Assembly (NCBI GenBank): GCA_947628755.1
Contig: CANRBC010000006.1
Span: forward strand, 1-64,000
Length of the DNA stretch: 64,000 bases
Direction: 5' to 3'
Source: an uncultured Clostridia bacterium
GTDB lineage: Bacteria; Bacillota; Clostridia; Lachnospirales; CAG-274
Part shown: positions 4,723-62,152 of the stretch, piece by piece
Layout: each line of letters begins with the position of its first letter
Numbering within the stretch: position 1 is the first letter of the stretch
Notes under the pieces: generated by a model
The model's database searches: none
Seen by the model: only the letters and a program-made list of their open reading frames with translations
Told to the model about the DNA's origin: nothing
Translations under genes and position numbers: made by a program

Positions 4723-4984
4723 AAAACAGCACCTCATTTTACATTTTAGATTTCTATTTTTTATTTTCTTGTTTAATAAGACGCTTATTTTTAAAATTTT
4801 GGACATTTTTATCGTAAAGTTTTTTGTTTTTTATAATCTTTGTTAAAAATAGCCAGTAAAATCGGAGAGCTTACAATAAAATGTATTAAAATTGCCTATG
4901 TTCAATTTGTTGACAAAGTTCTTAAAATTTTGTATTTTTTTAATATAGCAAGTTGTTTGTAATCTCTATCTCAAATTTTCAAAA

Positions 4985-24502: not shown

Positions 24503-27500
24503 TTACAAAGCAAAATCAGAGCTTTTGCTATGCTCTTTTTCGGATTTATTTGTATCTTCAACATTATCCGTTGCCAGCTCCTCATTAAGTTTACTCAGGC
24601 GAGTCTCCTTTTCCCTCAATTCATCAAGCTGCAGAAATGGCTTATTTACTTCCTCTTTAGCAACAGCAAGGGAATGTTCAATGTCGTTGAGTTTAGTCTT
24701 GCTTTGTTCAAGTTTCTTTGGTATACCGTTTATAGCGTTTTCAATACGGGTAATATTACCAAACACGTCTTGTCCAACATCTATTACATAGCTCATATTG
24801 CTTTTCAATGTAACCTCAAAATTCTTGGTAAATGTATTGAATGATGCTGACATATGGAAACCTCTGTATTCGCCTATGTACTTGCTGTCCTGTCCCGGAC
24901 GTATACTCCTGACACTTTCAAGAAAGGCAGTACCCGCTTCTTTCTTATCGGTATAGGTTTTTTCTCCTACTGTCATACCATTGAATTCTTCGGTCTTATT
25001 GTTTTCAGCTAATGCCATATCCTTTGTAAGTCCTGAAATATCGTTATTTAGTTTTTGTATCTGTGAAGGATATGTCTGAGCTATGTTTTGCTGTAATGTA
25101 CGTTTGTTTTCCTGATAGCCTGCAAAGACTGTCCTAAGCCTGTTGACCTCTATGTCCAAATCCATTTTTTCTTTGATTTTCGGATTTCCTGCTGCAAGTG
25201 CCTTGATCTGCGCATAACTCAGGACAGTTTCGTCTATATCTTCCGCTGAACGTGCAGGGGATTTAGATGTCATTATCTGACTTATAAAACGCTGCTTATT
25301 TTCAACAAGCTGATATAAATAGCTGTCAAAAGTGCCTTTTGTAACGTAGTTATATATATCTGCCTCTAAATTCTCATTACCCTGTCTGATTATTCTGCCG
25401 TTTCTCTGTTCCAAGTCAGACGGCTTCCAAGGACAGTCCAAGTGATGTAAGGCTGTCAGTTTATCCTGACAGTTTGCGCCTGTACCCATTTTACCTGTTG
25501 AGCCAAGTAAAATTCTTACTTCTCCGTTGCGTACCTTAGTAAATAATGACAATTTCTGCTCATCTGTTTTGCAGTCGTGTATATATGCAATCTCGTTTTC
25601 GGGAACACCTTTATTTATCAGCTTTTCTTTAATATCGTCATATACATTGAAAGTGCCGTCAAAGTGCGGAGTGGAAAGGTCGCAGAATATCATTTGTGTG
25701 CCTTTTGTATCCGCTGTGTTCTTCCATACCTCATATACATTATTCATACAAGCGTTTACCTTGCTGTTTTCATCATCAGGCAGAAGTGGATTAGCCAGTC
25801 TTTGGTCGAGAGCCAATTTTCTGCCATCATTTGTTACGTTAAGCATATTGTCAACATCTGCCGATACCATTCTTTTGCGGATATTGTTGGCTCTTTCTGC
25901 AAGACCGTCTACCATTTCCTTTTGGTATTCACTTGCATCCGTAACAACAGTATGATGATTTGCCTTTGGAACAGGCAAATTCAAAACATCGGCAGTCTTA
26001 ATGTCGGCTATTTCCTTAAACATTGACATTAACTCAGGCAGATTGAAAAACTTGGCAAATCTTGTTTTCATCTGGTAGCCCTTTCCTTCGGGAGCAAGCT
26101 CAAGAGATAATTGCGTTTCTCCAAAGGTAGAAGCCCAAGCATCAAAGTGGTTTAAATTTCTCCTTTTAAGCTCATCGTGCTGCAAGTATGACTGCATAAC
26201 ATATAACTCGGTCATGCTGTTGCTTATAGGCGTACCGGTGGCAAAAACAATACCCTTGCTGTCGGTCTTTTCATCAAGGTAACGGCATTTCTGTAAAAGG
26301 TCTGTGGCTCTTTGTGATGCTGAAGAAGCGTTTATCCCCGCTACGTTTCTTCCCATTTTAGTATTAAAATACAGATTTTTATACATATGTGCTTCATCAA
26401 TATAGAGCTTGTCGATGCCCATTTCCTCAAAGGTTATTGTTGTATCCCGCCTGTCGGCATTATTCAGCTTTTCAAGCCTTGTTTCCAAGTTCTTTTTTGT
26501 TGTTTCAAGCTGTTTTACCGTAAAACCTTTGTTGCCTTCTTTAAATCTCAGAGTCTCAATAAAGTTTGTTATTTCCTCAATTTCTTCTTCAATAAACTTG
26601 ACTTGTCTTTCGGTTGATAAAGGTATTTTTTCAAATTGATTGTGGGAAATAATAATGGCATCATAATTGCCTGTAGCTATTCTGCTGCAAAATCTTTCTC
26701 TGTTATCTTTTGAGAAATCCTTTTCGTTAGGGACAAGAATATTAGCAGCGGGATAAAGCTGTAAAAATTCTTTCGCCACCTGATTTAATATGTGTTTTGG
26801 AACAACTATCATACTTTTTGAGCATAAGCCAAGCCTTTTGCTTTCCATTGCAGAGGCTACCATTTCAAATGTCTTGCCTGCGCCTACGGAATGTGCCAGT
26901 AAAGTATTACCGCCGTATAAAGTATGAGCTATAGCGTCTATCTGATGTTTCCGTAGCTTTATTTCATGATTTATTCCTCCGAAGGTTATATGTGATCCGT
27001 CATATTCCCTCGGTCTAACAGAATTGAATTTTTCATTATAGATTTTACACAAATCCTGTGTCCTTTCATAATCGTCAAAAAGCCATTCCTTGAACTTATT
27101 TTTTATAGCATTCTGCTTTTCCTGTGCAAGCAAGGTTTCCTTTTCATTCAGAACAGCCACCTTTTTGCCCTCAAAATTTTCTACATAGTCCATAACCTTA
27201 ACGGTTTTCATATTCAGAGTTTCCTCTAAAATCTTATAAGCATTCATTCTGTCAGTACCATAGGTCTTACTTGCTTTAATATTGTTTTTAGAAGCGGAAT
27301 AATTGGATTTATTGCTTATACCGTAAGCGCAGTTATATTCATCATAATCTATGATTATTGTTTCATTATCGCTGCCTGCTCCGCTGCGGAAAGGATTTCT
27401 ATCCGTATCTCGCCAAGAACAATTACCTCTGCAATAATATGGTGTGTCTAACAATTCATACATAAACTCCTGATAGTAGTGAGTGGGTATCCATGTTGAG

Positions 27501-30500
27501 CCTAACTGTGCTGTTATCTCCGATGGCTGTAAATCCTCCGGCTGCACGTTTTCAAGTGCATTGACATTTACGGCATATCTTGTATCCTTTTCGGCATACT
27601 GCTTGGCAAGCTCCAGTTTATGCCTTACATTTCCTGAAAGATATTCCTCTGCCGTTTCATATTTATTGGTAACGGGATTTTCAAAAATCACTCCTTCAAG
27701 GTCTTTTATAACTTCGTCTACAGGCTTTGAACATAAATGTGCCATAAAATCAAGGTCTACCTTTGCTCTTTCTGCTATTGATACAGCCAATGCCTCGCTA
27801 GATGTATCTACGCTTTCAACAGGAATATATGGTATGATCGTTCTCTTTGTAAATATGTCTGCCTTGCTTTCCAGTTCTCCTGTTTTTTCATTAATATTTT
27901 CAAGAGATAATAAAAGCTGCGCTGTGTCATCTTCCCTGAATACCGATTTATTGAGCCTGTCATTGAGTAATCCGTACTCGGAAACAAAATCCTCATAAAC
28001 TTTGTTTAATTCCTGTTGTTTTTTAGTAATTTCCTCATCAGGATAATTATCCCGCTGAAAGGAAATCAAATCCCTCAATACTTCGCTTATCGCCACCATT
28101 TTTTTAACTCTTTCAGCTTTTTTACCGTCAAAGTTCTGTTTGACCATTTTATCATTTTCACGATAATATATATCATTGTCAATAACGGCATAGCAGAAAT
28201 TACGGTAGTTTTCGGCGGCAATATTCAAATCGTTATCTTCTTCATCAAGCACTTCCACAACAACGTCATTTATAGGTATTTTACCTCTTATATTCTCAAC
28301 GGCACTATCAAGCAATACCGATAGGTCTGTATCTTTAAATGGCTTGCAAGTTGTTTCCGGACCGAACCGCCCTGATACTTCTTCCATTGTACCGAGTATC
28401 ATCTGTGGATGTGAAATAAAGTAATTGTTTATTTCAATACCATTTTCATTTTCTGATACATTTACCCACTCAGGTACTTTTTCCTGTGTCAAATCCCTCA
28501 ATCTATCTCTTTTCTGCAAGAATATAATGTCTGTTGTTACTTCTGTGCCTGCTGTGCTGAAAGCATTGTTGGGTAAACGTACAGCTCCCATAAGGTCGGC
28601 TCGCTCTGCAAGATATTTTCTTACAGAGTTGTTTTTCTTATCCAAAGTACCCTTTGTTGTTATAAATGCCATTACACCGCCCGGTCTGATTTTATCAAGG
28701 CTCTTTTTGAAGAAGTAATCGTGTATAAGATTGCTCTCCTTGAATTCATTGTCATTGACATAGTAATTCCCAAAAGGCACATTTCCTACGGCAATATCAA
28801 ATGAATTGCTGTTAAAGTTTGTTTTCTCAAATCCCTTTACCTGAATATAGGCATTGGGATAAATTTTCTGAGCGATCCTGCCCGTTATGCTGTCAAGCTC
28901 AACGCCGTACAGTTTAGACTGCTGCATTTCCTGTGGCAGATATGCAAAAAAATTGCCTATTCCCATTGACGGTTCAAGTATTTTGCCTTCTCGGAAACCC
29001 ATATTGCTTAAAGCTTTATATATGGAATTTATTATTTCAGGAGGTGTATAATGTGCATTAAGAGTAGAAGAACGAGCTGCATTGTAGTCGCTTGGAGCAA
29101 GCAATTCCTTTAGCTCTGAATACTCCTTTTCCCACGCAGTCTTTGAGCTGTCAAAAACATCAGCCAAACCGCCCCATCCTACATACTTTTTAAGTATCGC
29201 CTTTTCTTCGGCAGTTGCCTCTCTGCTTTCATTGTCAATCTTATAGAGAGTTTTTATAGCTTCAATATTATTGCGGTACTTTTCTTTATTGCTTATTCTT
29301 TCATTATAATCCCGTGTAGGTTCTGTATCTGTTTCTATATCTGATGTGGGTAAATCACTTAATTCTGCCGTTCCCAAAGCTTTGTTTTTTTCTATGCTCT
29401 CTTTGGTCTGTTCATAAGTATTTACTTTATAGCCTTCATTTTCAAGAATTTCAGTATACTTACTTAAAACGTGTTGGGGAATACCTATCATAACCGAATT
29501 ATCTCTATTGACCATATGAAGATTCAAAACTTCGGCAGCTCTTTCAGCCTCTTGGCCAAAAGCCTCATAAAAATCTCCATATCGGTATAAATTTATGTCT
29601 GTGATTTCCGTTTCATCGGTTATGGGAATATTCTCTGTTTCCTGTTCGGAGAGCGTAAGGCTTTCTGCCTTCTGCTGCAAATATTTCTCTGCATTTGACA
29701 GATAGCTTTCAAGAGTACCGCTTTCATCGGGTCTTATCGGATCAATGTCAATCTTTACACCGTCAATGAAATCAAAGTTATTCTCCTCATCATTAAGAAC
29801 ATTAAAGAGCATATCTTCTTTGTAATCGCCCTCATACGCCAATACAATGTCCAGATCGGAGTTATCGTTTTCAATACCTCTGCTTCGGCTACCTGATATG
29901 ATTACGTCTTTGATTTGTATGTCTATTTCATTTTCAGCAACAAAGTCGGCAATTCTGTCTTTTATTATTTGTTCTATTTCAGATGCTGAATAGCCTTGTA
30001 TCGGTCTGAAATACATATCCGTTTCCTGACGATAATGGCTGACGGTATCATTTTCCTGTTCGGATTTTTCGGTTTCTTTGTTTTCAAGATACCTCTCCCA
30101 ATCCTCTGTTTCTATGCCGAAAATACCGTCAAACTCCTCAATATCCAACCTTGTTTCAGCCATACTCTCTGTTTCATCTTCATACAGACGATATACAGAA
30201 AATATATCCTCATCATAAAATTCAAGAGCCTTTTCCTTATTTATAGGCAGCAAGTGATTGTCTGTATAACCGTATTCGTTACGTTCGTCAATAGAAATAG
30301 TGTCGTCAGGCATATTGTCAAGCACTAAATTTGACAATGTGTATTCAGATGTTTCGTTGCGCTTGAAATCAGCCTTATCTGTTGTATAAAGGTCGTTTTC
30401 TATCAACTTTCCTATTGCTTTTTCAATCTTTGACCAACTTAATGTAATTTTTTCAGCATTCTCATAATCTTGGTCCTTTACTTTGGTTATAGCAATACCC

Positions 30501-32782
30501 TTGCTATCATAATTGATCCACCCTCTACAACCATCGGCGAAATCTATGCTTTGTCCGCCTATACCGTATTCATTTTTGAGAAAAACAGCTCTTTCCTTTG
30601 CATTACCAATAGTCCCATAAGCCTTAAAAATTCTTTCTTTTGAGTTTTCAAAATTCGATCCGAAACTTAATATTTCATCAATATCCTCCTGTGTTATTTC
30701 GGGAGCTGAATTTTCGGTACGGCTTTCCTTCGTATTGTCCACAGGATTTTCGTTCTTTCTTTGAATATCATTTACTGTAGGATTTTCGGCTTTTATTATT
30801 TCTTCAACTCTTTCAATGTCGTTACGGCTGAATGTAAGAGTAGTATCATTTTCATTGATTTTTCCGCTATATTTTATACCCGCTGCATTAAATGCCTCTG
30901 CAATTTTCAAAGCCGTATCCTTATTGAACTTTCTGTATGTTTTCTTGGGAATATAGCGATAGGGCGTATTACCTATTATGTTCTTTTCCTTTTGAGCAAC
31001 TTCTTTATCAGCAGACAAAGCTGTTTCGGCAGCTTTGTCTGCTGTAGATACAGATTCTTCTTTAGCTTTTTCTTTTTTTGTTGCTCTGTGGTTCACAAGC
31101 ATACCGTCACCATTAAGCATTAGTGAACATTCCGCTGCTATCCTGCCCATATGGATAAAGCTTTCATAGGATTCGTCAAGAGTTTTTCCTGTTGCAAAGG
31201 GAATTATGCCGTTTTCGGTCAATAACCCTATATCGAGATATATGCCCTCGCTTTCCCCAAAGTTGACATTACAGTTAAAGTTATAAAAATCCGGCAATTC
31301 TTCATACTCATTTATTGAAGGAATAAAATAATCATTGGGTAAAAGATTGTTATCTTCAAGATGTTGCCTGATCTGCTCAAAAATATCTTTTGCGTTGGCA
31401 TTGCCTATTTTTTTAACTCTATGGTTTTCGTCAGGCTCGCTATATAAAGTAGTTTCGATAGTTTTTACTGCATTTGAAAAGGCAGAGGATTTTTCCTCTG
31501 CCTTTGGTTGCTCATTGTTTAGATGTATATCAACTCTCTGTAAATTATCTCCCAAACCCTGTTCTTTATGCTGTTCCTCCGAGCTACCCATTCCATCTGA
31601 TCTGACTTCTTGAGAGCCTCTGTTACTCCTTCGGCTTTGCTCATTTCTTCCATCAACCTGTCCTCCATATTGTTTGCCGCTTTGTCTGTTTCTATAAGGT
31701 GCTTTGTCAGACCGCTTATCATCAGAGCTGAGTATGTTCCCTTTTTCTCTGTTTTCAGATACTCCAGCCTTTTCCTGCCCCACATTCCCATTTCGTAAGG
31801 TTCTTCTTCCTCCTGTTCCAACATCGGAATGTATGTCATTGTTTCCCTGTCCAGTTCGTATGTCAGACCGTTCTCCTCTGTGTACCGAGGAAGGTATGTT
31901 TTCAGTTCTTCGCTGTATATGTGCAGCATTCCGTTGATTTCCTTTGTCATTTCGTTCTTCATATGTAACATTCTCCCTTTCATATAAGTCATATAAATTC
32001 AGGTTACGGCTCTTGTTTTGGGAAATTTCCTTTTCGTAAGCTCTGACCTCCTTTTCGATTTCCCTAAGTACAATGCCTGAAATTTCAGCAGTTGCCTGTC
32101 CAAGCTGAGTTATTACCTCCTTTGTGTTAAAATCTGCAACACCTCTGAAATCAGCGGCATTAAAGTCAGATTCTATACCGCATCTGTTTAATATGGTATA
32201 CATTACACTATTTTTGAGCAATCTTGTGAACGTAGTTTCAATATTCAGGTCATCGAGTTCCTCTAAAAAGCTGCCCTCCTTATTTTCAATAGTTTCAAGT
32301 GCATATCCGTATGTGTAATCAAGTAAGCTGTCAACTCTGCTTTCAATAATATCCTCTAAACTGCTGCTGTAGCTGACGTTATTACTTATTCCGAGTCTGT
32401 CCTTTATTACATTGATATATTCGTCTTTCATTTCCCACAGACTTACTCTTTTTGAATAGTTGTTGGTTTCTGTATCGGACACATCATATACATAAGTCAG
32501 TTTTTTAACTCCGTCTTTCTCTCTGAGTAACGGTATGCCCTTAGAGCCTTGCTTTATATGTCTTTTCAGGCTGCCTGTCCATAAATTGAATGAGGCACAC
32601 ATTGTTGCATCAGGTCTTTGAGAAGTAATAAGCACTTGGTCTGTAAAGCTATATTTATAAAATCTTGCAGAGTTTATTAAAAACTGCTGCCAATTTTCGA
32701 TGTTTTTTGTCAAATCAAGAGTACGATTTTCCAAAAAGTCCTCGATCCTTACTATTTTCTCGGCTTTTGTTTCCATAAGCAT
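24503..32782 (-). CDS. Giant ICE helicase / N6-adenine methylase fusion protein
   Basis: A 2759-residue cytoplasmic protein of the type found once per Tn1549-like element. Visible in order: an ArdC-like N-terminal DNA-binding region (about 15-110, WQQFLINSARFYKYSFTDQV); a long charged linker (about 263-421) that is coded over an alternate-frame ORF; a small domain at about 680-790; a nucleotidyltransferase-like motif GSRSRGIENDNSDLDIVL (about 960); a MutS-N/YodL-like segment LYRYGDFYEAFGQEAERAAE (about 1065); an N6 methylase with LEPSMGIGNFFA and NVPF (about 1265-1330); and an SNF2/DEAH helicase with Walker A HSVGAGKTFEM (about 1960), DEAH (about 2125) and IRQGNENLEADIYNYV (about 2465). A coiled coil ends it. 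AGGAGG precedes MLMETK. It probably protects or processes DNA in the recipient. Confidence 0.88.
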   Translation of the reverse strand: MLMETKAEKIVRIEDFLENRTLDLTKNIENWQQFLINSARFYKYSFTDQVLITSQRPDATMCASFNLWTGSLKRHIKQGSKGIPLLREKDGVKKLTYVYDVSDTETNNYSKRVSLWEMKDEYINVIKDRLGISNNVSYSSSLEDIIESRVDSLLDYTYGYALETIENKEGSFLEELDDLNIETTFTRLLKNSVMYTILNRCGIESDFNAADFRGVADFNTKEVITQLGQATAEISGIVLREIEKEVRAYEKEISQNKSRNLNLYDLYERENVTYEERNDKGNQRNAAHIQRRTENIPSSVHRGERSDIRTGQGNNDIHSDVGTGGRRTLRNGNVGQEKAGVSENREKGNILSSDDKRSDKAPYRNRQSGKQYGGQVDGRNEQSRRSNRGSQEVRSDGMGSSEEQHKEQGLGDNLQRVDIHLNNEQPKAEEKSSAFSNAVKTIETTLYSEPDENHRVKKIGNANAKDIFEQIRQHLEDNNLLPNDYFIPSINEYEELPDFYNFNCNVNFGESEGIYLDIGLLTENGIIPFATGKTLDESYESFIHMGRIAAECSLMLNGDGMLVNHRATKKEKAKEESVSTADKAAETALSADKEVAQKEKNIIGNTPYRYIPKKTYRKFNKDTALKIAEAFNAAGIKYSGKINENDTTLTFSRNDIERVEEIIKAENPTVNDIQRKNENPVDNTKESRTENSAPEITQEDIDEILSFGSNFENSKERIFKAYGTIGNAKERAVFLKNEYGIGGQSIDFADGCRGWINYDSKGIAITKVKDQDYENAEKITLSWSKIEKAIGKLIENDLYTTDKADFKRNETSEYTLSNLVLDNMPDDTISIDERNEYGYTDNHLLPINKEKALEFYDEDIFSVYRLYEDETESMAETRLDIEEFDGIFGIETEDWERYLENKETEKSEQENDTVSHYRQETDMYFRPIQGYSASEIEQIIKDRIADFVAENEIDIQIKDVIISGSRSRGIENDNSDLDIVLAYEGDYKEDMLFNVLNDEENNFDFIDGVKIDIDPIRPDESGTLESYLSNAEKYLQQKAESLTLSEQETENIPITDETEITDINLYRYGDFYEAFGQEAERAAEVLNLHMVNRDNSVMIGIPQHVLSKYTEILENEGYKVNTYEQTKESIEKNKALGTAELSDLPTSDIETDTEPTRDYNERISNKEKYRNNIEAIKTLYKIDNESREATAEEKAILKKYVGWGGLADVFDSSKTAWEKEYSELKELLAPSDYNAARSSTLNAHYTPPEIINSIYKALSNMGFREGKILEPSMGIGNFFAYLPQEMQQSKLYGVELDSITGRIAQKIYPNAYIQVKGFEKTNFNSNSFDIAVGNVPFGNYYVNDNEFKESNLIHDYFFKKSLDKIRPGGVMAFITTKGTLDKKNNSVRKYLAERADLMGAVRLPNNAFSTAGTEVTTDIIFLQKRDRLRDLTQEKVPEWVNVSENENGIEINNYFISHPQMILGTMEEVSGRFGPETTCKPFKDTDLSVLLDSAVENIRGKIPINDVVVEVLDEEDNDLNIAAENYRNFCYAVIDNDIYYRENDKMVKQNFDGKKAERVKKMVAISEVLRDLISFQRDNYPDEEITKKQQELNKVYEDFVSEYGLLNDRLNKSVFREDDTAQLLLSLENINEKTGELESKADIFTKRTIIPYIPVESVDTSSEALAVSIAERAKVDLDFMAHLCSKPVDEVIKDLEGVIFENPVTNKYETAEEYLSGNVRHKLELAKQYAEKDTRYAVNVNALENVQPEDLQPSEITAQLGSTWIPTHYYQEFMYELLDTPYYCRGNCSWRDTDRNPFRSGAGSDNETIIIDYDEYNCAYGISNKSNYSASKNNIKASKTYGTDRMNAYKILEETLNMKTVKVMDYVENFEGKKVAVLNEKETLLAQEKQNAIKNKFKEWLFDDYERTQDLCKIYNEKFNSVRPREYDGSHITFGGINHEIKLRKHQIDAIAHTLYGGNTLLAHSVGAGKTFEMVASAMESKRLGLCSKSMIVVPKHILNQVAKEFLQLYPAANILVPNEKDFSKDNRERFCSRIATGNYDAIIISHNQFEKIPLSTERQVKFIEEEIEEITNFIETLRFKEGNKGFTVKQLETTKKNLETRLEKLNNADRRDTTITFEEMGIDKLYIDEAHMYKNLYFNTKMGRNVAGINASSASQRATDLLQKCRYLDEKTDSKGIVFATGTPISNSMTELYVMQSYLQHDELKRRNLNHFDAWASTFGETQLSLELAPEGKGYQMKTRFAKFFNLPELMSMFKEIADIKTADVLNLPVPKANHHTVVTDASEYQKEMVDGLAERANNIRKRMVSADVDNMLNVTNDGRKLALDQRLANPLLPDDENSKVNACMNNVYEVWKNTADTKGTQMIFCDLSTPHFDGTFNVYDDIKEKLINKGVPENEIAYIHDCKTDEQKLSLFTKVRNGEVRILLGSTGKMGTGANCQDKLTALHHLDCPWKPSDLEQRNGRIIRQGNENLEADIYNYVTKGTFDSYLYQLVENKQRFISQIMTSKSPARSAEDIDETVLSYAQIKALAAGNPKIKEKMDLDIEVNRLRTVFAGYQENKRTLQQNIAQTYPSQIQKLNNDISGLTKDMALAENNKTEEFNGMTVGEKTYTDKKEAGTAFLESVRSIRPGQDSKYIGEYRGFHMSASFNTFTKNFEVTLKSNMSYVIDVGQDVFGNITRIENAINGIPKKLEQSKTKLNDIEHSLAVAKEEVNKPFLQLDELREKETRLSKLNEELATDNVEDTNKSEKEHSKSSDFAL
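31519..31962 (-). CDS. TnpV-family ORF nested out of frame inside the helicase gene
   Basis: A 147-residue frame on the same strand as the helicase but in another phase. It carries the features of the TnpV family (known from Tn4451-type transposons): YTEENGLTYELDRETMTYIP, GMWGRKRLEYLKTEKKGTYS, MISGLTKHLIETDKAAN and the C-terminal block SDQMEWVARRNSIKNRVWEI followed by a terminal LIYI. The conserved family core is intact, and AAGGGAG lies 10 nt before ATG (MKNEM), while AAGGAA precedes the internal MLHIYS start. In the helicase phase the same DNA encodes only a low-complexity charged linker. Whether TnpV is made as a separate protein is not proven; its function is also unknown. Confidence 0.65.
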   Translation of the reverse strand: MKNEMTKEINGMLHIYSEELKTYLPRYTEENGLTYELDRETMTYIPMLEQEEEEPYEMGMWGRKRLEYLKTEKKGTYSALMISGLTKHLIETDKAANNMEDRLMEEMSKAEGVTEALKKSDQMEWVARRNSIKNRVWEIIYRELIYI

Positions 32783-33689: not shown

Positions 33690-36600
33690 TTACTGTGTAA
33701 TATAGTTATAAATGATAGTTGCCATTTCAGCTCTTGTTATTTCCGCAGAAGGATTGATATTTCCGTTATCCCCAACAATAATGCCTGCTTCGACCAATGC
33801 TGCCGTATATGGCTTTGCCCATTCAGATACAGTATGACCGTCAGCAAAATCATCAAGTGCAGATAAATCTACCTTGTCAATATCTGTATTGTTCAGTTTT
33901 GCGATTATAACAAACATTTCTTCACGAGTGATTGTTTTTTCGGGCTTGAATTCCCCGTTGCCATATCCTATAAACAAATCTCTCCTTGAACAGTTTGCAA
34001 TAGCTTCTGCATAATAGCTGTCCGCAGGAACATCTGTGAAGTCAAGAGCATCTACACTTGTAATATTGTCAAGTTCAAGCATTCTGTCAAGAACAAGAGC
34101 AAAATCACCTCTCTTGGTAGATATATCAGGCATAAATAAATCATCTGTTACACCTTTGAAAATACCCTTATCGTGAAGATATTCTATGTAATCTTCTGCC
34201 CAGTGATCGCTTATATCATCAAACTCACTATCGCCTGAGTCAGTATTACCCGTACCCTGTTCCGTACCTTGTTCTGCTTTGGTATCGGTTTCTGTATCAG
34301 GCTCGGTTTTTGTATCTGTCTCAGACTTGATGTCGGTTTTGTCTTTAGCATCGCCGGTCGTTGATTCTGTTGTGATTTCTGTCTTAGGCTTTCTTCCTGC
34401 ACCACCGCCGGAATGGTTACCTGAGCTTGTTGTAGTTTCTGTTGTGGTTTCTCTTGCAGATACAGTTATGTCAATATCGGCTTCTGCTCCGTCTGCTACA
34501 ACAGTGACCTTTGTATCCTCCTGAGTAAGCGGTTTATTGTCTTTCACAACAATATCCTCATCTTTAACGGTTTCCTTGCTGCCGTCGTTATATGTTACTT
34601 CAACGGCTGTACCGTTCTTATCAAATTTCTCGCCTTCGGTATATTCTGTTCTTGGATATTCAACTACCTTTGCAGAAACAGCTTTCCTTGCAATAACTGT
34701 AATAGGCACATTTATTTTCTCTGTACCGTTTTTATACTCATAATATACAACACCATATATATCGCTGAGAGTAAGCGGAATATCACTTACATAAACGCCG
34801 TTTTCATCAATATATGTCTTAGTACCGTCATTCCAAAGAACTTCAATTAAAATACCTGCCGGATCAAATATCTGTCCTTCAACATAATTCGTCTTGTCAG
34901 GAAGATTAATTATTCTGATACCTTCGGAATTGCTATTACTATTCTCTGTTGTAGTGCTTTCAGAATTACCATTTCTATTCTCTGTTGTAGTTTCTGTGCT
35001 GTTGTCACAGTCTGATGAAGTGGTCTGCTCTCCTGCGCTGTCAGTTGTGGTTTGTTCATTTGTAGTTTCAGCAGTTGTGTGTTCATCTGAGCTATTGGCT
35101 GTAGTTGTTTCCGTATCTTCCTCGCTACCTACAATTACCTTTTTGATTACAGTAACAGGCTGTTCTGCTTTGTGTCCCTCAAAGTTGATTTCAACTGCCG
35201 TATCGGTTATTTCAAGCGGTCTTTCGGGATATGTATAATCAGTAACGACCTCTCTTGTATTATCCTTGTATACAGCTTCGACTGTCATACCATTATCGTC
35301 AAAATACTGACCTTCCACATACTGTGTCTTTTCGGGAGCTTTCACTATTTCTATATGGTCAATAGTGGTATGCCTGTAATGGGTATTGAGTATCCATATA
35401 ACATCAAGCATATTTATATCTCCGTCATCATTGGCATCGGCGTTAAGCTCATAAACTGTATCCATATCCCACATATTGAGTATAGCCTTATTTATAAGGT
35501 CTGTATCAACCTCTGAAACAATACCGTCACCGTTAATATCGGCATTTATAAGTGATGCTTCGCTTAAATTTGCATTGCCGTTGATATAATTGTTTATAAG
35601 CACAATATCATCATTTGTAAGATTACCGTCATTGTCCGTATCTCCTGTGTGAACAGCCTTTTTTGCAAAATCTGTTACTTTGCCGAGATACTTTGTAAGT
35701 ATGCCTGCATCTGTGAGATCCACAGCACCATCTCTGTTGACATCGCCGTTGTGTTCTTTGATGAAACTGTTTAAGTTTTTTATTGCAAGAGTAATAGGCA
35801 CAACATCATAAAATCCCTTGTACTCTATTGTTACATACATATCTCCTGCTTTGAAAGGCTCTTCAGAGTAAGTATAGTCTGAAATCTCGGAACTGCTATT
35901 GTCATTATAGTATGCTGTTACGACCATACCTTCAACATCAAATATTTCGCCTTCTGTATATTCGACCTTATCAGGCTGCCTTGTAACTTTAATACCGACA
36001 ACTTCCTTATGTACTACTGTAATAGGTGTAGTATCTGTTTTACCGTCTTTTCTTACTGTAATTATGCTATCATATACTGTTAATGGAGTATTGGGAATAA
36101 TCTCATAGCTTTCCAGTATTCCTGTGCTGCCATCGTCATATTTAGCCTTGACCACCATTCCTGTTCTGTCAAAACTTTCACCCTCCACATAATTTGTTTT
36201 AGAAGGCGGTGTTATTATCTCAATTTCCGTTATTGACTTTGCAATAACATTAATAGGTGTTGTAGTATAAAGTCCGTTATAAGTAATATATACCTTATCC
36301 GTTCCTACTGAGAGCCTATTGCTGTCTACAACATAGTCCTTTACTTCTGTCTGAGTACCGTCATTGTATGTTGCTGTAATAACCATACCCGTCTTATCAA
36401 ATACATCATTTTCAATGTATGTGGTTTTCTTAGGCGGTTTGGTAACAGCAATACTTGTCATAAGTTTTTCGGTTACAATAATTCTTATAATATCTGTCTT
36501 GCCGTCTTTGGTTACGATTATTTTATCTGTATCGGCAGTAATTACATCGGGAGAAAAGGTATAATCCCTTATCTCGCTTTCCGTACCGTCATTGTAGTGT

Positions 36601-39302
36601 GCAGTTACTATCATACCCGTATCATCAAAATGCTGACCTACAATATAATCAATCTTATCAGGCTCTTTTGTGATATTAATATATGATATAACCTTTTCTA
36701 CAACAGTAATAGAAACATTTGTTGTTTTGCTGCCTGCGGATATGGTAATATTTTTATCACTTAATGTAAGAGGAGCAGAGGAAAAAGTATACTCGCTTGG
36801 TGCAAGGGCTGAACGTGTACCGTCTGAGTATGTTGCCATAACGACCATACCATAGTCATTAAATACCTCGCCTTCTACATAATTTGTTTTCTTCGGCTGA
36901 GTTGTAACTGTAATACTTGTAATTGTCTTTTCGGCAACACTTATATCTACAGTAACGAAGAAATTTTTATAGGTTATATATATCTTATTTGTGCCTCCGC
37001 TTAAAGGACTTCTGCTATAGTCATAATCGTTGATAACTTTTTCCGTACCGTCACTATATAAGGCTTTTACCTCCATTCCGCTGTTATCAAAAGTATCGCC
37101 TGCTATATAACTTACTTTACTTGGCTGCTTGGTAACCTTAATACCTGTAAGTATAACTGTGTCTTTTACGGTAACATCTACTGTTGTATAAAGGTTGTTA
37201 TAAGTAATATATACCTTACTTTGTCCTGACTTCAATACATTATCAACAATTACATAATCAGATATAGGCGCAGAAGTACCGTCATTATAGGTAGCGGTAA
37301 CTACCATTCCTGCCTTGTTAAAGGTATCGCCCTCATTATATGACAGTTTGTTTGGCTGCTTAGTAACAGCAATGCTTGTTACTGCTTTATTCACAACAGT
37401 AATAGGTGTTGTAGCTGTCTTTCCTGACTTGCTTACAGTAATTGTTTTTGTGTTATCCTCAATAATATGCGGCTCATAGGTATAATCGGAGATTTCTGCC
37501 TTTGAACCATCATTGTAAGTTGCCGTAACACGCATACCCTCTGTTGCAAAAGCCTGTCCTACTATGTATTCGGTCTTTTTCGGAGGATATGTGACTTCTA
37601 TACCCGTAATTGTCTTTGCAACTACATTAACAGCAACACTTGCTGTCTTATTGCCTGCAGATACGGTAACATTTTTATTGCCTGTTGTAAGTGCCGTTGC
37701 AGGATATGTATATTCGTATTTCTTTAATACACCTTTAGAGCCGTCATTATATGTGGCTGTAACGACCATACCTTCATCATCAAACTTTTCGCCTTCTACA
37801 TATGAAGTTTTCTTTGGCTGAGTCGTTATTGCTATACTTGAAATCTCTTTGTCGGCAACAGATACATCTACAGTATCATAATAATCGCCATAAGTTACAT
37901 ATACCTTGTTCTGACCTGACTTCAATATATTGTCCTCTATAACATAATTTGTTATAGGAGCTGTGGTGCCATCATTATATGTGGCTGTAACGACCATTCC
38001 GTTCTTATCAAAGGTTTGTCCTACAATATAACTTACCTTGCTTGGCTGATTGGTAACTTCAATACCTACTATTTCTTTAGGCACAACTTTAATAGGTACG
38101 GTTGCCGTATAGAAAATATCTGTGCCTGAGTTAAGAAAGCCGTAATATACTTCCATTTCCGTGTCAGCAGTAGTCAAAGCTCTGTTTTCCTGATATACTT
38201 TGGAATCACTTGTTAAATCATAAGTAGTAGACGGTTTAAAAGTGGATTTTTCCCAGTCAAAATTATTGATATTGTTGTCATCTGCAAGTGAAATCTCTTT
38301 TGAGCCAAATGTTGTTGCGGAAATTACCATTCCTGCTTTGTTAAATTTCTGCCCCTCAACGTATGTTGTCTTTGTCGGAGGAGTAGTAACAGAATAGTCA
38401 GCAAACGGATAGCCGTTAGAGCACAGGTCTATGCCACCATCGGCAATGCTGTTGCCTTGCGCACCAAAACAGTCATAGCTGCCTGAAAATCCTCCATAAT
38501 TGTATGTATAACGTAATTTGAAATAATTGACAACTGCATTATCCCAGCTTGCATATTTTGTAGCCTTTGGGGCTTCCTCTGTGATTTCACAATCGATATT
38601 TAATTTTTCGGGATTTATCGCTATTTCATCGGTTGTACCTTCAATTTTGGCTAATATTCCAAAATTTTTGTTATGGGAACTACCGTTGGAAAATTTACCG
38701 TTGTAATATGATTTAAAGGCTTTTATAAGGCTTTGCTTTGCATCGTCCATTAAACCATACGCATAAAAATCAGCCACTACAAGTCTTAAATTAGGAGCTA
38801 TTTTTATTGAAGTACAATGGGTTTCATCTGCCGGAACAACTTGATTAATCGGCACATCAAATTTTACTGTTTTGTCATATCTTGTACCGTCGGAAAATGT
38901 TTCATTTTCAATGAAATACTTATAGGTATATTCAAGAAAATCATCATTTTCCATTGTGTTATAATCCACATAATTCTTAGCAGGAGTTATATGTTCTCCC
39001 AATACAGATGTTGTTTCAAGAGTTGTACCATCTTTAAAATGCAGAGTTAATGTTACCTTTGACAAATATTCTTCAACTCTGCTGCGCAAATGATCTCTTG
39101 TAATCATTTCGCCATCATACAATGTAGGTATAGGGCAATACTCTGTAGGATGTGGAGTTGCTGTAATGCTTGTTATCTCCTGACTGTATGTAGGTCTGTT
39201 TTCGCCATAAGCAAATACGTTTACCGCATTCACTATTCCTATGCTTGAAAAAGCCATAACACACGCAAGAAAAGTTGCAAAAAAACTTTTAATTCTGTTC
39301 AT
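33690..39302 (-). CDS. SLH-anchored surface protein with about 14 Ig-like (Big_3) repeats and two dockerins
   Basis: An 1870-residue exported protein; signal peptide MNRIKSFFATFLACVMAFSS. A folded N-terminal region (about 20-300) is followed by about ten Big_3-type repeats of roughly 80 residues, each starting like ITSIAVTKQPNKLSYNEG and containing GMVVTATYNDGT. Residues about 1175-1310 hold two dockerin modules with four F-hand loops (NGDVNRDGAVDLTDAG, DTDNDGNLTNDD, DINGDGIVSEVD, DANDDGDINMLD). Three more Ig-like repeats, a Thr-rich linker and three C-terminal SLH domains (DHWAEDYIEYLHDKGIFKG) that bind secondary wall polymers complete it. GGAGG precedes the chosen ATG. It is likely a scaffold or adhesin on the cell surface, cotranscribed with the cohesin-like gene. 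Confidence 0.88.
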   Translation of the reverse strand: MNRIKSFFATFLACVMAFSSIGIVNAVNVFAYGENRPTYSQEITSITATPHPTEYCPIPTLYDGEMITRDHLRSRVEEYLSKVTLTLHFKDGTTLETTSVLGEHITPAKNYVDYNTMENDDFLEYTYKYFIENETFSDGTRYDKTVKFDVPINQVVPADETHCTSIKIAPNLRLVVADFYAYGLMDDAKQSLIKAFKSYYNGKFSNGSSHNKNFGILAKIEGTTDEIAINPEKLNIDCEITEEAPKATKYASWDNAVVNYFKLRYTYNYGGFSGSYDCFGAQGNSIADGGIDLCSNGYPFADYSVTTPPTKTTYVEGQKFNKAGMVISATTFGSKEISLADDNNINNFDWEKSTFKPSTTYDLTSDSKVYQENRALTTADTEMEVYYGFLNSGTDIFYTATVPIKVVPKEIVGIEVTNQPSKVSYIVGQTFDKNGMVVTATYNDGTTAPITNYVIEDNILKSGQNKVYVTYGDYYDTVDVSVADKEISSIAITTQPKKTSYVEGEKFDDEGMVVTATYNDGSKGVLKKYEYTYPATALTTGNKNVTVSAGNKTASVAVNVVAKTITGIEVTYPPKKTEYIVGQAFATEGMRVTATYNDGSKAEISDYTYEPHIIEDNTKTITVSKSGKTATTPITVVNKAVTSIAVTKQPNKLSYNEGDTFNKAGMVVTATYNDGTSAPISDYVIVDNVLKSGQSKVYITYNNLYTTVDVTVKDTVILTGIKVTKQPSKVSYIAGDTFDNSGMEVKALYSDGTEKVINDYDYSRSPLSGGTNKIYITYKNFFVTVDISVAEKTITSITVTTQPKKTNYVEGEVFNDYGMVVMATYSDGTRSALAPSEYTFSSAPLTLSDKNITISAGSKTTNVSITVVEKVISYINITKEPDKIDYIVGQHFDDTGMIVTAHYNDGTESEIRDYTFSPDVITADTDKIIVTKDGKTDIIRIIVTEKLMTSIAVTKPPKKTTYIENDVFDKTGMVITATYNDGTQTEVKDYVVDSNRLSVGTDKVYITYNGLYTTTPINVIAKSITEIEIITPPSKTNYVEGESFDRTGMVVKAKYDDGSTGILESYEIIPNTPLTVYDSIITVRKDGKTDTTPITVVHKEVVGIKVTRQPDKVEYTEGEIFDVEGMVVTAYYNDNSSSEISDYTYSEEPFKAGDMYVTIEYKGFYDVVPITLAIKNLNSFIKEHNGDVNRDGAVDLTDAGILTKYLGKVTDFAKKAVHTGDTDNDGNLTNDDIVLINNYINGNANLSEASLINADINGDGIVSEVDTDLINKAILNMWDMDTVYELNADANDDGDINMLDVIWILNTHYRHTTIDHIEIVKAPEKTQYVEGQYFDDNGMTVEAVYKDNTREVVTDYTYPERPLEITDTAVEINFEGHKAEQPVTVIKKVIVGSEEDTETTTANSSDEHTTAETTNEQTTTDSAGEQTTSSDCDNSTETTTENRNGNSESTTTENSNSNSEGIRIINLPDKTNYVEGQIFDPAGILIEVLWNDGTKTYIDENGVYVSDIPLTLSDIYGVVYYEYKNGTEKINVPITVIARKAVSAKVVEYPRTEYTEGEKFDKNGTAVEVTYNDGSKETVKDEDIVVKDNKPLTQEDTKVTVVADGAEADIDITVSARETTTETTTSSGNHSGGGAGRKPKTEITTESTTGDAKDKTDIKSETDTKTEPDTETDTKAEQGTEQGTGNTDSGDSEFDDISDHWAEDYIEYLHDKGIFKGVTDDLFMPDISTKRGDFALVLDRMLELDNITSVDALDFTDVPADSYYAEAIANCSRRDLFIGYGNGEFKPEKTITREEMFVIIAKLNNTDIDKVDLSALDDFADGHTVSEWAKPYTAALVEAGIIVGDNGNINPSAEITRAEMATIIYNYITQ

Positions 39303-39303
39303 A

Positions 39304-39933
39304 TTACTGTACCTCCTCATAGTCAACAGTATTTTCTGCGGTTTCATTTACAGGCTGAAATTCGTTATCAGAAACATCGTCAGTAGATGATACTTCAACC
39401 GCAGCTCCGCTTGAAACATTATCACTTACAAAAGGCACAAACGCCTTTGAAACATTGTTGTTTACTTTATAACTGCTTGAATAGCTGTATTCACCGCCAG
39501 CCATTACATCGGAATACCTTGCTATCTGATATATTTTTGTATCAACCTTTGTGTCCTGCGTTTTCGTATCGGACAACACTTCAAACTCAATATGAGCCAA
39601 TTTATTGTTATCTTCAAGGCTGTAAAAATCCTTGTCAGCCCAACCTACAATTATTTTGCCTTTAGAAGTCTTGTCGGCAGTTAAATATCCTCTGTCAATA
39701 TCATTTACGGCATAGCAATCCTCGCCTAAAATATCAGTATCCGAAAGGACCGGCGATAATACCGTCGGATCATAACTTATCTCGGCAACATAACCATTTA
39801 CGGTATTTGTAATAGCAGAATCCATTGTTATCGGTACAGAAATCCTGCTGCTTTCTGCCATTGTATTTGTACCAACACAAGTCATAGTCATTATTGCTGC
39901 ACATAAGGCAGTTACAACACTTTTAATTCTCAT
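39304..39933 (-). CDS. Secreted cohesin-like protein
   Basis: A 209-residue exported protein with signal peptide (MRIKSVVTALCAAIMTMTC). Residues about 30-140 follow the cohesin pattern: ISVPITMDSA, VNGYVAEISYDPTVLSPVLS, GKIIVGWADKDFYSL, KLAHIEFEVLSD. Cohesins bind dockerins through calcium-dependent contacts. The C-terminal 50 residues are acidic and disordered, without an anchor, so the protein is released or held by partners. It ends 1 bp before the start of the dockerin/SLH gene and has GGAGG at its own start. Identification rests on pattern, not on alignment. Confidence 0.65.
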   Translation of the reverse strand: MRIKSVVTALCAAIMTMTCVGTNTMAESSRISVPITMDSAITNTVNGYVAEISYDPTVLSPVLSDTDILGEDCYAVNDIDRGYLTADKTSKGKIIVGWADKDFYSLEDNNKLAHIEFEVLSDTKTQDTKVDTKIYQIARYSDVMAGGEYSYSSSYKVNNNVSKAFVPFVSDNVSSGAAVEVSSTDDVSDNEFQPVNETAENTVDYEEVQ

Positions 39934-39946
39934 AGAATAGTCCTCC

Positions 39947-40678
39947 TTATTTCGCATATTTTTCTTTATAGCCCCAGTTAGTAAGTATCAGGTCATTTGT
40001 CAGATAACATCTGTACCTTGCGTTAGGAAAGCCTGTCTTATCTAACCTAAGACCATTTGTTATATCAATATTAAGCCATCTGTCGTTTATATAAACCTTG
40101 TTCCATTCGTGCGATAAATCCTTGCTTACAACAATTTTGCAAGGAATATCAAGGTATTCCATAACTTTTCTGAAAGCTAACGAAAATGAACAGCACGTTC
40201 CTTTGTTTTCGGAAAACAGACTGTATATGTCATAATTTTTATATGTGCCGTCATACTCAAAATGGTCTATAAAATAGTCGTAAACCATTTTTACTTTCTC
40301 AGGATTTGAGCAGCCTTTTGTAATATCGGCTATATCAGTTATACAGTCATTGACCTCCTCATTTTTCTTAGCTGTTTCTTCAGCGGAAAATATGTAACGG
40401 AAACTTATTTTTTCAATAATGCTGTCATTATTGCTGTCGTAAGTTACAAAATTATTCTCCATAGAGAAGGTATTAATGTCCTCGCTGAATATCTCTGTCA
40501 TTGCCTCCGCAACTTTATTTGATGTAAGCGAAAACTCCTCAATTTCAACAGATGGGTAATGATTATCTATTGCATATATGATTTTGTTCTTTATGTTGCT
40601 GTCAATCTCTCCACAATAGACCGTAGTGCTAAAACCAAGCAGTAAAAGAACAAAAATCAGTAAAAAACTCTTTTTCAT
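39947..40678 (-). CDS. Secreted transglutaminase-like protein
   Basis: A 243-residue exported protein with a hydrophobic signal segment (MKKSFLLIFVLLLLGFSTTV). The C-terminal part fits the transglutaminase-like (Cys-His-Asp) superfamily: the Cys in NKGTCCSFSLAFRKVMEYLD, the His in LSHEWNKVYINDRWLNIDIT and the Asp in NIDIT. Such proteins act as peptidases or cross-linkers at the cell wall. GGGAGG lies before the ATG. The gene runs into the cohesin-like gene with overlapping ends, so the three surface genes form one operon. Confidence 0.78.
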   Translation of the reverse strand: MKKSFLLIFVLLLLGFSTTVYCGEIDSNIKNKIIYAIDNHYPSVEIEEFSLTSNKVAEAMTEIFSEDINTFSMENNFVTYDSNNDSIIEKISFRYIFSAEETAKKNEEVNDCITDIADITKGCSNPEKVKMVYDYFIDHFEYDGTYKNYDIYSLFSENKGTCCSFSLAFRKVMEYLDIPCKIVVSKDLSHEWNKVYINDRWLNIDITNGLRLDKTGFPNARYRCYLTNDLILTNWGYKEKYAK

Positions 40679-57475: not shown

Positions 57476-58705
57476 TTATGACAGTAGCCAGTCAATAATA
57501 TTCAGAGCTTTTATTCCGTCATAGGAATTTATATAGCTTCTGTCCATTGACAGTACTATTTTTTCATAGTTGTCGGCTATCATACGCAGAGGACGCAGTT
57601 CACGCTCTCTTGTTTCGGGAGTCTGCATACTTTCGGTAACTTGTATATACAGCTTATCATCAGGCTTTTCAGCAACAAAGTCAACCTCTGTTTCTCCCAC
57701 CTTGCCTATATATACACGGTAGTCCCGACGAATAAGCTCCAGAAATACAATATTTTCAAGAATATGCCCTCTGTCAGCATCCCTGTAGCCCAGAAGCATA
57801 TTGCGAAAGCCCAGATCTACAATGTAATTTTTACCAAGTGTTTTAAGGAGTTGTTTTCCCTTTACATCATATCGCCCAACGGAATAAAATACAAATGCGC
57901 TGCGCAGCATAGATATATATTTATCCACGGTTTTGCCTGCAACATTTTTCCTTTTGCCTTTCCGAATATCTCCCTCATCATAAAGAATATTGCCAATGCT
58001 ATTGGGAGATGTAATGCTACCTAAATTGGAACAAAGAAAAAGTATTATCTTATGCAGAGTATTTTGGTCGACCTGATTGTTGCGCTGTAGAATATCTCTC
58101 AGTATAACTGTGGAATAAATGCCCTCCAGCGCCTGATTGCTCCTTGCCTCGTTAAACCGATACTCTCTTAGTATGGGCATACCGCCGAACTGCAAATACT
58201 TCTGAAACTTCTCCTCTACCGTTATCTCGGGGGCAAATTCATAGAAAGTCAGGAACTCTTTGAAAGACAAGGGCAACACCTTTATCTCTACATATCTGCC
58301 CGAAAGCAATGTAGAAAACTCTGTGGACAGGAGGTAGGCATTGGAGCCTGTTATATATATATCCACATCAAAATCAAGACGGAAGGATTCTACCGCCTTT
58401 TCCCAATGCTCCACAGCCTGAAGCTCATCAAATATAAGATATGTCTTGCCTGTATCTGAAATAAGTATGCTTACATAATCGTAAAAGGATAAATAGTCTG
58501 TCAGATTTCTGTATTGAAGGGATTCCATATTCATATGGATAATATTTTTCTCAGGAACACCTGTTTCCACAAGATACCTATGAAATAAATCCAAAAGTGA
58601 AGACTTTCCGCATCTGCGTATGCCTGTAACTATCTTTACAAGATCCACATCCTTGTTCTGTATAAGCTGCCTTAAATATTGCGGACGGTCAATAAGCTCT
58701 GCCAT
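57476..58705 (-). CDS. DUF4143 AAA-type ATPase, copy A
   Basis: A 409-residue P-loop protein: Walker A GIRRCGKSSLLDLF, Walker B LIFDELQ, sensor ITGSNAYLLSTEFSTLLSGR, then a DUF4143 domain with a C-terminal nuclease-like part (GETEVDFVAEKPDDKLYIQV). Members are widespread ATPases of unknown duty, often linked to mobile DNA. GAGGTG precedes MAELID. It is about 90-95% like the gene at 60896, so the two are recent duplicates flanking a spore-protein gene. Confidence 0.88.
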   Translation of the reverse strand: MAELIDRPQYLRQLIQNKDVDLVKIVTGIRRCGKSSLLDLFHRYLVETGVPEKNIIHMNMESLQYRNLTDYLSFYDYVSILISDTGKTYLIFDELQAVEHWEKAVESFRLDFDVDIYITGSNAYLLSTEFSTLLSGRYVEIKVLPLSFKEFLTFYEFAPEITVEEKFQKYLQFGGMPILREYRFNEARSNQALEGIYSTVILRDILQRNNQVDQNTLHKIILFLCSNLGSITSPNSIGNILYDEGDIRKGKRKNVAGKTVDKYISMLRSAFVFYSVGRYDVKGKQLLKTLGKNYIVDLGFRNMLLGYRDADRGHILENIVFLELIRRDYRVYIGKVGETEVDFVAEKPDDKLYIQVTESMQTPETRERELRPLRMIADNYEKIVLSMDRSYINSYDGIKALNIIDWLLS

Positions 58706-58731
58706 AATACACCTCACGAAATTTTTATTTC

Positions 58732-58815
58732 ATTATAATCTAAGAGTTAAAAAAAGTCAATAGTTTTCGACTTATAATTCTAAAACTTTCAAAATAATAT
58801 ATTTTCCGACTTATA
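58732..58815 (-). promoter_or_regulatory. Promoter and direct repeats upstream of ATPase copy A
   Basis: TTGACT and TATAAT are spaced by 17 bp (58732-58760). Upstream lie two direct repeats of GAATTATAAGTCGRAAA (minus strand). The same pair precedes copy C, so they are likely operators for a shared regulator. Confidence 0.6.
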
Positions 58816-58830
58816 ATTCCAAAATTTAAA

Positions 58831-58856
58831 GGAGCAATTTTGATATAATTGCTCCC
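58831..58856 (-). terminator. Terminator after the spore protein gene
   Basis: GGAGCAATT pairs with AATTGCTCC around a 7-nt loop, with a weak T-run. Confidence 0.65.
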
Positions 58857-58901
58857 CAAATTTATAGATATATAATCAAATATCAGTGACAAATATGTCT
58901 G

Positions 58902-59189
58902 TTACATTTCCTGTGCATACTGCATAAACACTACATTACATATGTAATTTACAGAATAAACTTCGCCGTTTACGCACCCTGTAGTTCGTTGAAATTCCTT
59001 GCTCCGTCTCGTTAACACGTTATTGACCATATAACCGCCTACATAGCCGTTCTGAGCAGATGTTAAGTCGCCATTGTAACCCTTCTTTAAAGGTACGCCG
59101 ATCTCGCTTGCGACCTCATACTTAAACTTATCCATAGCTTCTCTTGCTTCAGGAATGTTTACCTTGTTACTGCTTGAACTAGATGACAT
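58902..59189 (-). CDS. Alpha/beta-type small acid-soluble spore protein
   Basis: SASP coat the DNA in the spore core and protect it from UV and heat. The core NIPEAREAMDKFKYEVASEI plus GVPLKKGYNG and SAQNGYVGGYMV matches the family, including the GPR protease site region (KYEVASEIG). The C-terminal 40 residues (VLTRRSKEFQRTTGCVNGEV...) do not look like the usual short helix and include Cys and aromatic residues; the frames either side end in stops, so a simple frameshift is not visible. GGAGGTAA precedes the ATG. It shows that the host sporulates. Confidence 0.88.
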   Translation of the reverse strand: MSSSSSSNKVNIPEAREAMDKFKYEVASEIGVPLKKGYNGDLTSAQNGYVGGYMVNNVLTRRSKEFQRTTGCVNGEVYSVNYICNVVFMQYAQEM

Positions 59190-59334
59190 ATTATTTACCT
59201 CCTTATTTGTATTAGTAACTGTGTTACAATATTATTTTGTCATATAAGAGGCTTTTTAATCTGAAAAAATTTAACAGACAATTTTGAAAACGCAGCAAGC
59301 CCATATCCCCTTTGTAAATCTTGGCAAAATCATA

Positions 59335-59363
59335 AAAAGAGCAGCCATAATGCGACTGCTCTT
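59335..59363 (-). terminator. Terminator after ATPase B
   Basis: AAGAGCAG pairs with CTGCTCTT around a 12-nt loop, with a T-rich end on the minus strand. Confidence 0.7.
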
Positions 59364-59383
59364 GCTTTTACAATATACTTATT

Positions 59384-60679
59384 TTATATACAAAACGCCG
59401 CATAAAGAGGAACGGTCTTTTTACCATTCTCGAAGCCGAAATTTTTGGCGGACAGCTTTATAGCATAAGGCGGCTTATAGGTATCCATATATACCTTAAG
59501 GCTTTTTGCCTTTGTATTATCTGCGGACTTTACCTCAATGGGTATGAGCTTACCCTCGCGCTGTATTACAAAGTCTATTTCCGCTGCGCGTCCCGATTCC
59601 CAATAATAGGTTCTGTATCCATTTACGGTAAGCTGTACGTTTACATAATTTTCTGCAAGTCCGCCCTTGAAATCATTTAATTCTTCTGTCATATAGAGAA
59701 TATCGTTTGCCGTCAAATCCTTTTTTGCGGCAAGCAGACCCAAATCGGAAACATATATTTTAAATGCGTCAATATCCCTATAATTTTCAAGAGGCTTTTT
59801 AATTTGCTCTACCTTAAATACCTGAGATACTATACCCGAAAGACAAAGCCATTCAATAGCGTTTTCAAATTCCGAAGCGCGTCCGCCTTTTTTAATGAGC
59901 TTGTATTGAAAACGGGTATTCTTTTTGGAGAGCTGAACGGTGATATTGTCGTATACAAGGCGTGTTTTCTTTATTTCATTGAGATTGTTGTACTTGCTCA
60001 TATCGTTGAGATAACTTGTCAATATGGTATCCTGAATATGGCGTATGAGAACATAGTCCCCCGTTTCGGCAAACTGTTTTACACATTCGGGCATACCGCC
60101 TACGACATTATACCGGCGGTAAAGCTCCATTGACTTGTTGTGCAAAGCGGAGGGCATAGGCGTATCGGTCTGAAAGCATTTTCTGATATTATTTACAAGA
60201 GCTTCCTCGCCCAAAGCTATCATGAACTCCTCCATATCCATGGGATAGAGGGTCTTTATATCCACCTTTCCCACAGGAAAAGAAAATTTTGCTCTGTTGA
60301 CGGCAACGCCCAGCAAGCTTCCTGCCACAATAATGTGATATTCAGGGGCTTCCTCGCAAAAATATTTTAATGAAGTAAGAGCTCTTTCACACAGCTGTAC
60401 CTCGTCAAAGACAATAAGAGTTTTTTCCTTGAATATAGTCTGTCCCGCAATATGGGAAAGAATAGGAATAAGATACTCCGGACTTATATTTTCTTCAAAT
60501 GTATCGCTAAGTCTTGGATCGGTCTCAAAATTAAAATATGCCGTATTTTCATAGTAAGTACGACCGAACTCCAGTATAGAATAGGTCTTACCGACCTGCC
60601 TTGCTCCCTGGAGTATAAGAGGCTTACGGTGTTTACTTTCCTTCCAGTCTTCTAAAAATTTCGTTATTTTTCTGTACAT
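59384..60679 (-). CDS. DUF4143 AAA-type ATPase B (divergent type)
   Basis: A 431-residue P-loop ATPase with DUF4143: Walker A LQGARQVGKTYSILEFG, Walker B LIVFDEVQLCERALTSLKYF, sensor IIVAGSLLGVAV, and C-terminal YYWESGRAAEIDFVIQREGK with the PD-(D/E)XK-like E-x-D...E-x-K pattern. It is of another clade than copies A and C. I used MYRKITKFL as start because GGGAGG lies upstream; the track ORF adds 32 unsupported residues. Confidence 0.87.
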   Translation of the reverse strand: MYRKITKFLEDWKESKHRKPLILQGARQVGKTYSILEFGRTYYENTAYFNFETDPRLSDTFEENISPEYLIPILSHIAGQTIFKEKTLIVFDEVQLCERALTSLKYFCEEAPEYHIIVAGSLLGVAVNRAKFSFPVGKVDIKTLYPMDMEEFMIALGEEALVNNIRKCFQTDTPMPSALHNKSMELYRRYNVVGGMPECVKQFAETGDYVLIRHIQDTILTSYLNDMSKYNNLNEIKKTRLVYDNITVQLSKKNTRFQYKLIKKGGRASEFENAIEWLCLSGIVSQVFKVEQIKKPLENYRDIDAFKIYVSDLGLLAAKKDLTANDILYMTEELNDFKGGLAENYVNVQLTVNGYRTYYWESGRAAEIDFVIQREGKLIPIEVKSADNTKAKSLKVYMDTYKPPYAIKLSAKNFGFENGKKTVPLYAAFCI

Positions 60680-60709
60680 ACAAAAGCCTCCCTTTTTATA
60701 TTTATCTAT

Positions 60710-60738
60710 ATCATAACAAACATTCGTGTAAAAATCAA
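60710..60738 (-). promoter_or_regulatory. Promoter of ATPase B
   Basis: TTGATT, 17 bp, TATGAT on the minus strand. ATTCGTGTA within it recurs inverted as TACACGAAT about 75 bp upstream, which may be a binding site pair. Confidence 0.55.
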
Positions 60739-60895
60739 TATATTTTTTACATTTTTCTGCATTATAATTCACCAATATTTTGTAAAAAGTTTCATTTTTC
60801 TACACGAATCGTTCCCAAAAACTCCCAAAATTTCTGAATTTTCGGCTTAAAATACAAAAAAATAACAAAGGCGGCTATTAATGAAATAACCCTTT

Positions 60896-62125: not shown

Positions 62126-62152
62126 AATACACCTCCAAATTTTATTAATTTT

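Follow-up and report, generated by a model that had tools for sequence, protein, structure and literature searches.

Does a long helicase gene of an uncultured Clostridia bacterium contain a second complete gene, read from the same strand in another frame? In the window (the whole stretch of DNA analysed, 64,000 nucleotides), the list of open reading frames includes a 157-codon frame at 31519-31992 on the minus strand that lies fully within a 2759-aa helicase ORF (24503-32782, minus strand). The initial annotation described this frame as a TnpV-like gene and offered two readings of it, either that the helicase captured a tnpV gene which it now reads out of phase as a linker, or that both proteins are made. 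Comparison of related sequences favours the second and speaks against a relic. We consider it highly likely that two working genes are truly nested here on one strand, and TnpV and the helicase are very probably both made. The features discussed here are as follows.

24503-32782, minus strand: ICE helicase of 2759 aa, with ArdC-like N-domain, MutS_I, methyltransferase-like and SNF2/Helicase_C domains
32027-32713, minus strand: helicase N-terminal domain, partly ArdC-like, used as the query for the TnpV-independent survey
31519-31962, minus strand: tnpV, 147 codons, ATG at 31962, TAA at 31521-31519, in the helicase +1 frame; assigned from Pfam, homology and selection
31519-31962, minus strand: helicase linker on the tnpV bases, residues ~274-422, R/S/G/N-rich, weakly constrained
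31963-31992, minus strand: in-frame extension upstream of tnpV with alternative ATGs, begun at 31992 in the initial annotation; unconserved
31973-31980, minus strand: Shine-Dalgarno-like AAAGGGAG, 10 nt before ATG 31962

The nested frame and its host helicase

The Pfam TnpV family (PF14198) matches the nested frame at 105.7 bits (E = 1.6e-30, gathering cut-off 27), and the match covers positions 8-111 of the 111 in the profile, that is, nearly its full length. The frame itself runs from 31519 to 31992 as first annotated, but the start of the 147-aa protein is best placed at ATG 31962, which we picked using the homologues L003, L009 and L012. Close homologues, including the free-standing copy L003 (~75% identical), start at the equivalent position, and the extension to 31992 is not conserved. 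Read in the helicase frame, the same bases give a sequence rich in R/S/G/N/E, which agrees with the disordered, R/S/G/N-rich linker described initially.

The frame is not an accident of the linker's codons. When the helicase linker was recoded synonymously 20,000 times, the frame stayed open in 259 cases. Among 2,000 of the recodings, the top TnpV score was 67.7 bits, compared with 155.3 for the real sequence. A chance origin of the nested TnpV frame is thereby excluded. The genome has three TnpV matches, namely the window copy, a second nested copy in another helicase (L001/L237) and the free-standing L003.

The host helicase is part of an ICE, since the neighbouring genes on the minus strand encode a TraG-type P-loop ATPase, PrgI, TrbL, a coupling protein, a topoisomerase and a resolvase. 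At its beginning, the N-domain of the helicase aligns to ArdC-like ssDNA-binding proteins, and the domain is identical in two rabbit-gut Clostridia MAG contigs (L151, L152). Elsewhere in the window, positions 33690-39957 hold ICE cargo in which a 1885-aa Big_3/dockerin/SLH surface protein adjoins one with a cohesin domain, so that the mobile element carries a cohesin-dockerin pair, and three consecutive related AAA_14/DUF4143 ATPase genes (57476-62164) are found at the window end.

Nesting and start signals in related helicases

The initial annotation had suggested asking whether the linkers of related helicases also encode TnpV in the same shifted frame. To avoid selecting loci by TnpV, we found helicases in genome contigs by the N-domain alone, and 78 of the 80 loci recovered have a nested TnpV at the same place and in the same helicase +1 frame, always in one phase and one position immediately 3' of the N-domain. 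One of the exceptions, L180, is on a contig that ends 135 nt past the N-domain, and the other, L181 (Lutispora thermophila), has a single in-frame helicase nonsense codon (4820-4822, inside the overlap) with TnpV intact. A second survey, made across the class in 291 genomes, agreed with this apart from helicases that were cut or broken and a single clear absence, L110/L256, a helicase of the family that lacks TnpV both in the linker and near it and has a second ArdC-domain gene immediately upstream.

Nested TnpV-like ORFs preceded by a Shine-Dalgarno sequence are also found in divergent helicases of Enterococcus faecalis pMP8-1, Streptococcus agalactiae, Anaerococcus prevotii pAPRE01, Streptococcus suis pID32563 and Virgibacillus. 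On these five ORFs Pfam scores three above the cut-off, one at 24.9 (of 27 bits) and one at 15.9, and across the distant nested relatives the scores run from 145 bits (L191, L005) down to the sub-cut-off L252 (24.9) and L250 (15.9). The TnpV gene is absent from the annotation of these divergent plasmid and element records, the PLSDB gene tables being incomplete. Records with a broken helicase (Cohnella, Monoglobus) do annotate it, and NCBI annotation rules discourage embedded genes (PMC8665328). Taken as a whole, the surveys indicate that nested tnpV is a real and conserved but unannotated gene, apparently family-wide in these helicases, and this family-wide nature went beyond what had been seen from the window. 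Other arrangements were also observed. At L096 (G134:C216) there are two distinct TnpV ORFs in tandem, one within a truncated helicase and one directly after it, and at L258 (1556-1759) tnpV is just upstream of the helicase rather than inside.

A gene inside another gene's codons needs a start of its own, and the Shine-Dalgarno proposed initially is present in the window as AAAGGGAG, although it is slightly off the family consensus, which is AAAGGAG at a spacing of 8 nt. At the family level, we chose starts by protein motif alone (n = 95) and used as controls 3,730 other +1-frame ATGs of the same helicase ORFs. A Shine-Dalgarno match of >=6 nt precedes 84 of the 95 motif-chosen starts (88%) but only 1.1% of the control ATGs, and the Arg codon that overlies the Shine-Dalgarno in the helicase frame is AGG in 94% of cases, compared with 11% outside the overlap. 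An earlier version of the Shine-Dalgarno and Arg-codon test was discarded as circular, the start having been chosen there by the Shine-Dalgarno itself, and was replaced by the motif-chosen starts. The nested tnpV thus seems to own its translation start signals, clearly so across the family and more weakly in the window itself.

These signals bear on whether TnpV might instead be made by programmed frameshifting, as the C-terminal part of a fusion of the helicase N-domain with TnpV that lacks a start of its own. The median open stretch upstream of tnpV in its frame is 15 codons, which would leave a window for a shift in many loci, but in 18 nested loci a TnpV-frame stop lies 0-3 codons from the ATG (in L112 immediately before it). 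Given this, the conserved Shine-Dalgarno and ATG, and the start of free-standing L003 at the same place, we judge frameshifting very unlikely.

Selection in the two frames

Whether one or both frames are maintained can be read from substitutions, because helicase codon position 1 is TnpV position 3 and the hypotheses of TnpV constraint and helicase constraint predict opposite patterns. The codon-position comparison proposed initially was therefore made, with a fixed transition bias, on close pairs, of which only 12 are free-standing; the elements share history, so the cells are not fully independent. In 51 nested pairs, the ratio of TnpV-silent, helicase-altering changes to the reverse (SN/NS) is 3.1 (95% interval 2.8-3.5), which points to TnpV as the constrained protein of the overlap. 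Free-standing tnpV, analysed with a dummy host frame, gives a similar SN/NS of 4.2 (12 pairs). The peak of substitution is at position 3 in helicase codons on both sides of the overlap, and within the overlap it is at TnpV position 3, which is helicase position 1. Residue divergence is 12.8% for TnpV, 21.6% for the linker encoded by the same bases and 12.2% for the helicase N-domain.

These results can be set against the proposal that a captured tnpV is now read only as linker and that its own frame is a decaying fossil. The helicase-frame linker does look disordered and tolerant of change, as would suit such a relic, but constraint in the overlap falls more heavily on TnpV residues than on the linker residues that share their bases, the Shine-Dalgarno and ATG are conserved, and the TnpV frame is intact in 78/80 loci and survives even in loci with a broken helicase (L181, L071, L231, L232). 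Neither stops nor drift in the TnpV frame nor loss of the profile match, outcomes that the initial annotation named as telling against its reading, was found. We regard a relic as extremely improbable.

The opposite possibility is that only TnpV matters, with no helicase made across the linker and the helicase frame open by accident. Changes that are silent in TnpV and create a helicase stop occur at 0.053 (0.026-0.079) of the SN rate in nested copies versus 0.92 (0.66-1.25) in free-standing tnpV, so that stop-creating changes are depleted about 20-fold in nested copies and not in free-standing ones, which argues that both frames are kept. The helicase domains on both sides have normal codon-position constraint, and the helicase-phase frame is open in none of the 36 free-standing tnpV copies listed, all being closed by stops. 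Weak constraint on the linker residues is what would be expected if TnpV alone mattered, but against these observations we find the idea scarcely credible. The linker is not wholly free either, the NN/NS ratio for its residues being 1.15 in nested and 1.61 in free-standing copies, a mild residual constraint. Selection appears to act in both frames, with TnpV residues protected, the helicase frame kept free of stops and linker residues weakly constrained, the linker sequence being in large part a by-product of TnpV and of little importance to the helicase.

Two working genes could operate from one mRNA, in which the long helicase ORF carries a complete tnpV, with its own Shine-Dalgarno and ATG, inside the linker codons in the +1 frame. 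Ribosomes beginning at the helicase start would make the helicase, and those beginning at the internal start would yield the compact TnpV (about 115-180 aa), so a single transcript might supply useful levels of both. Nesting would also couple the supply of TnpV to the helicase, and the element could not lose one alone.

Origin, possible function and significance

Across 155 loci, TnpV and N-domain distances are closely correlated (Mantel r = 0.908, against at most 0.145 in permutations), so TnpV and the helicase are inherited together. In a midpoint-rooted TnpV tree of 119 columns, the backbone on either side of the root is made up of nested lineages, well-supported branches force at least seven changes between nested and free states, and free copies fall within nested clades (L003 beside L002, L141 beside L016). 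Direct capture of a free-standing tnpV by the helicase is not favoured, because the listed free copies would have interrupted the helicase with their helicase-phase stops. Repeated, independent nesting at a single site and in a single phase is unlikely, and the free-standing tnpV genes found in other elements have therefore most likely escaped from nested copies. Some mobilizable elements of Streptococcus suis that target the snf2 gene of an ICE for insertion carry a free-standing tnpV themselves (PMC9815147).

A birth of the TnpV family de novo, by overprinting of the helicase linker in its +1 frame and with several later escapes into transposons, would fit the nested lineages on both sides of the root, the number of state changes and the free copies inside nested clades, and we rate it as possible but somewhat less likely than not. 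Capture of an older tnpV gene is a possible alternative to such a birth. In L257 (7124-7136) and L259 (2599-2646), a naturally un-nested tnpV precedes the helicase by 12-47 nt, and the linker of that helicase is nearly absent, suggesting that the helicase can dispense with the linker and that TnpV stays by the helicase.

The AlphaFold model of TnpV (pLDDT 94.4) is confident and has beta hairpins followed by five helices. Foldseek found no match to it in PDB or BFVD at E <= 0.001, a search in which small folds can be missed, and a PDB sequence search returned only a designed protein (E 0.021). PADLOC gave no defence match, and the PHROGs match is to a family lacking an assigned function. The TnpV of Tn4451 has been postulated to act in excision, by similarity to lambda Xis (PMC3158075), and a role as excisionase (RDF) for the element's recombinase would be compatible with two working nested genes. 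Free-standing tnpV does adjoin recombinases in a Streptococcus suis element and in L055, but the Foldseek comparison recovered no Xis-like fold, only one of ten free-standing copies has a recombinase among its mixed neighbours, and nested copies track the helicase, so we hold this role to be somewhat unlikely. Given the tight linkage of TnpV to the helicase, we favour an accessory part in the DNA processing or transfer of the element.

Long same-strand nested genes are regarded as rare oddities in bacteria. The nested gene comS is a single small gene of about 46 codons, whereas nested tnpV encodes a family protein of 110-180 codons that is conserved in very many elements of several classes. 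Like nested tnpV, comS lies out of frame on the same strand of a larger gene, srfA of Bacillus subtilis (PMC12350097). Long full overlaps have also been proposed for olg1 and olg2 of Pseudomonas aeruginosa (PMC12350097) and for pop, antisense to ompA (PMC7103648), but these are described from single species, while tnpV has homologues outside the overlap, which permits comparison of nested and free copies. The same-strand nested gene is thus a known kind, and what is new here is a very widespread variant of it. The protein shares its family, size and C-terminal core ending LIY(I/S) with tnpV of Tn4451 and Tn6104-6106 (PF14198), although known copies are described as separate transposon genes and here the gene is inside another gene in another frame. 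The host is the same type of gene as snf2, the SNF2/methyltransferase helicase of ICESa2603-family ICEs and their relatives, and nested TnpV-like ORFs are found in streptococcal and enterococcal members of these helicases. A literature search found no description of a second gene in snf2 nor of a nested tnpV, and annotation rules discard long same-strand nested genes (PMC8665328).

If both proteins are made, conjugative-element helicases throughout Bacillota carry, as an entire family, a nested gene for which free-standing homologues are a built-in control, and what dual coding costs and how it arose would become measurable. A missing gene would be added to a very common class of resistance-spreading elements, and knock-outs, insertions or recoding of snf2 would also hit tnpV.
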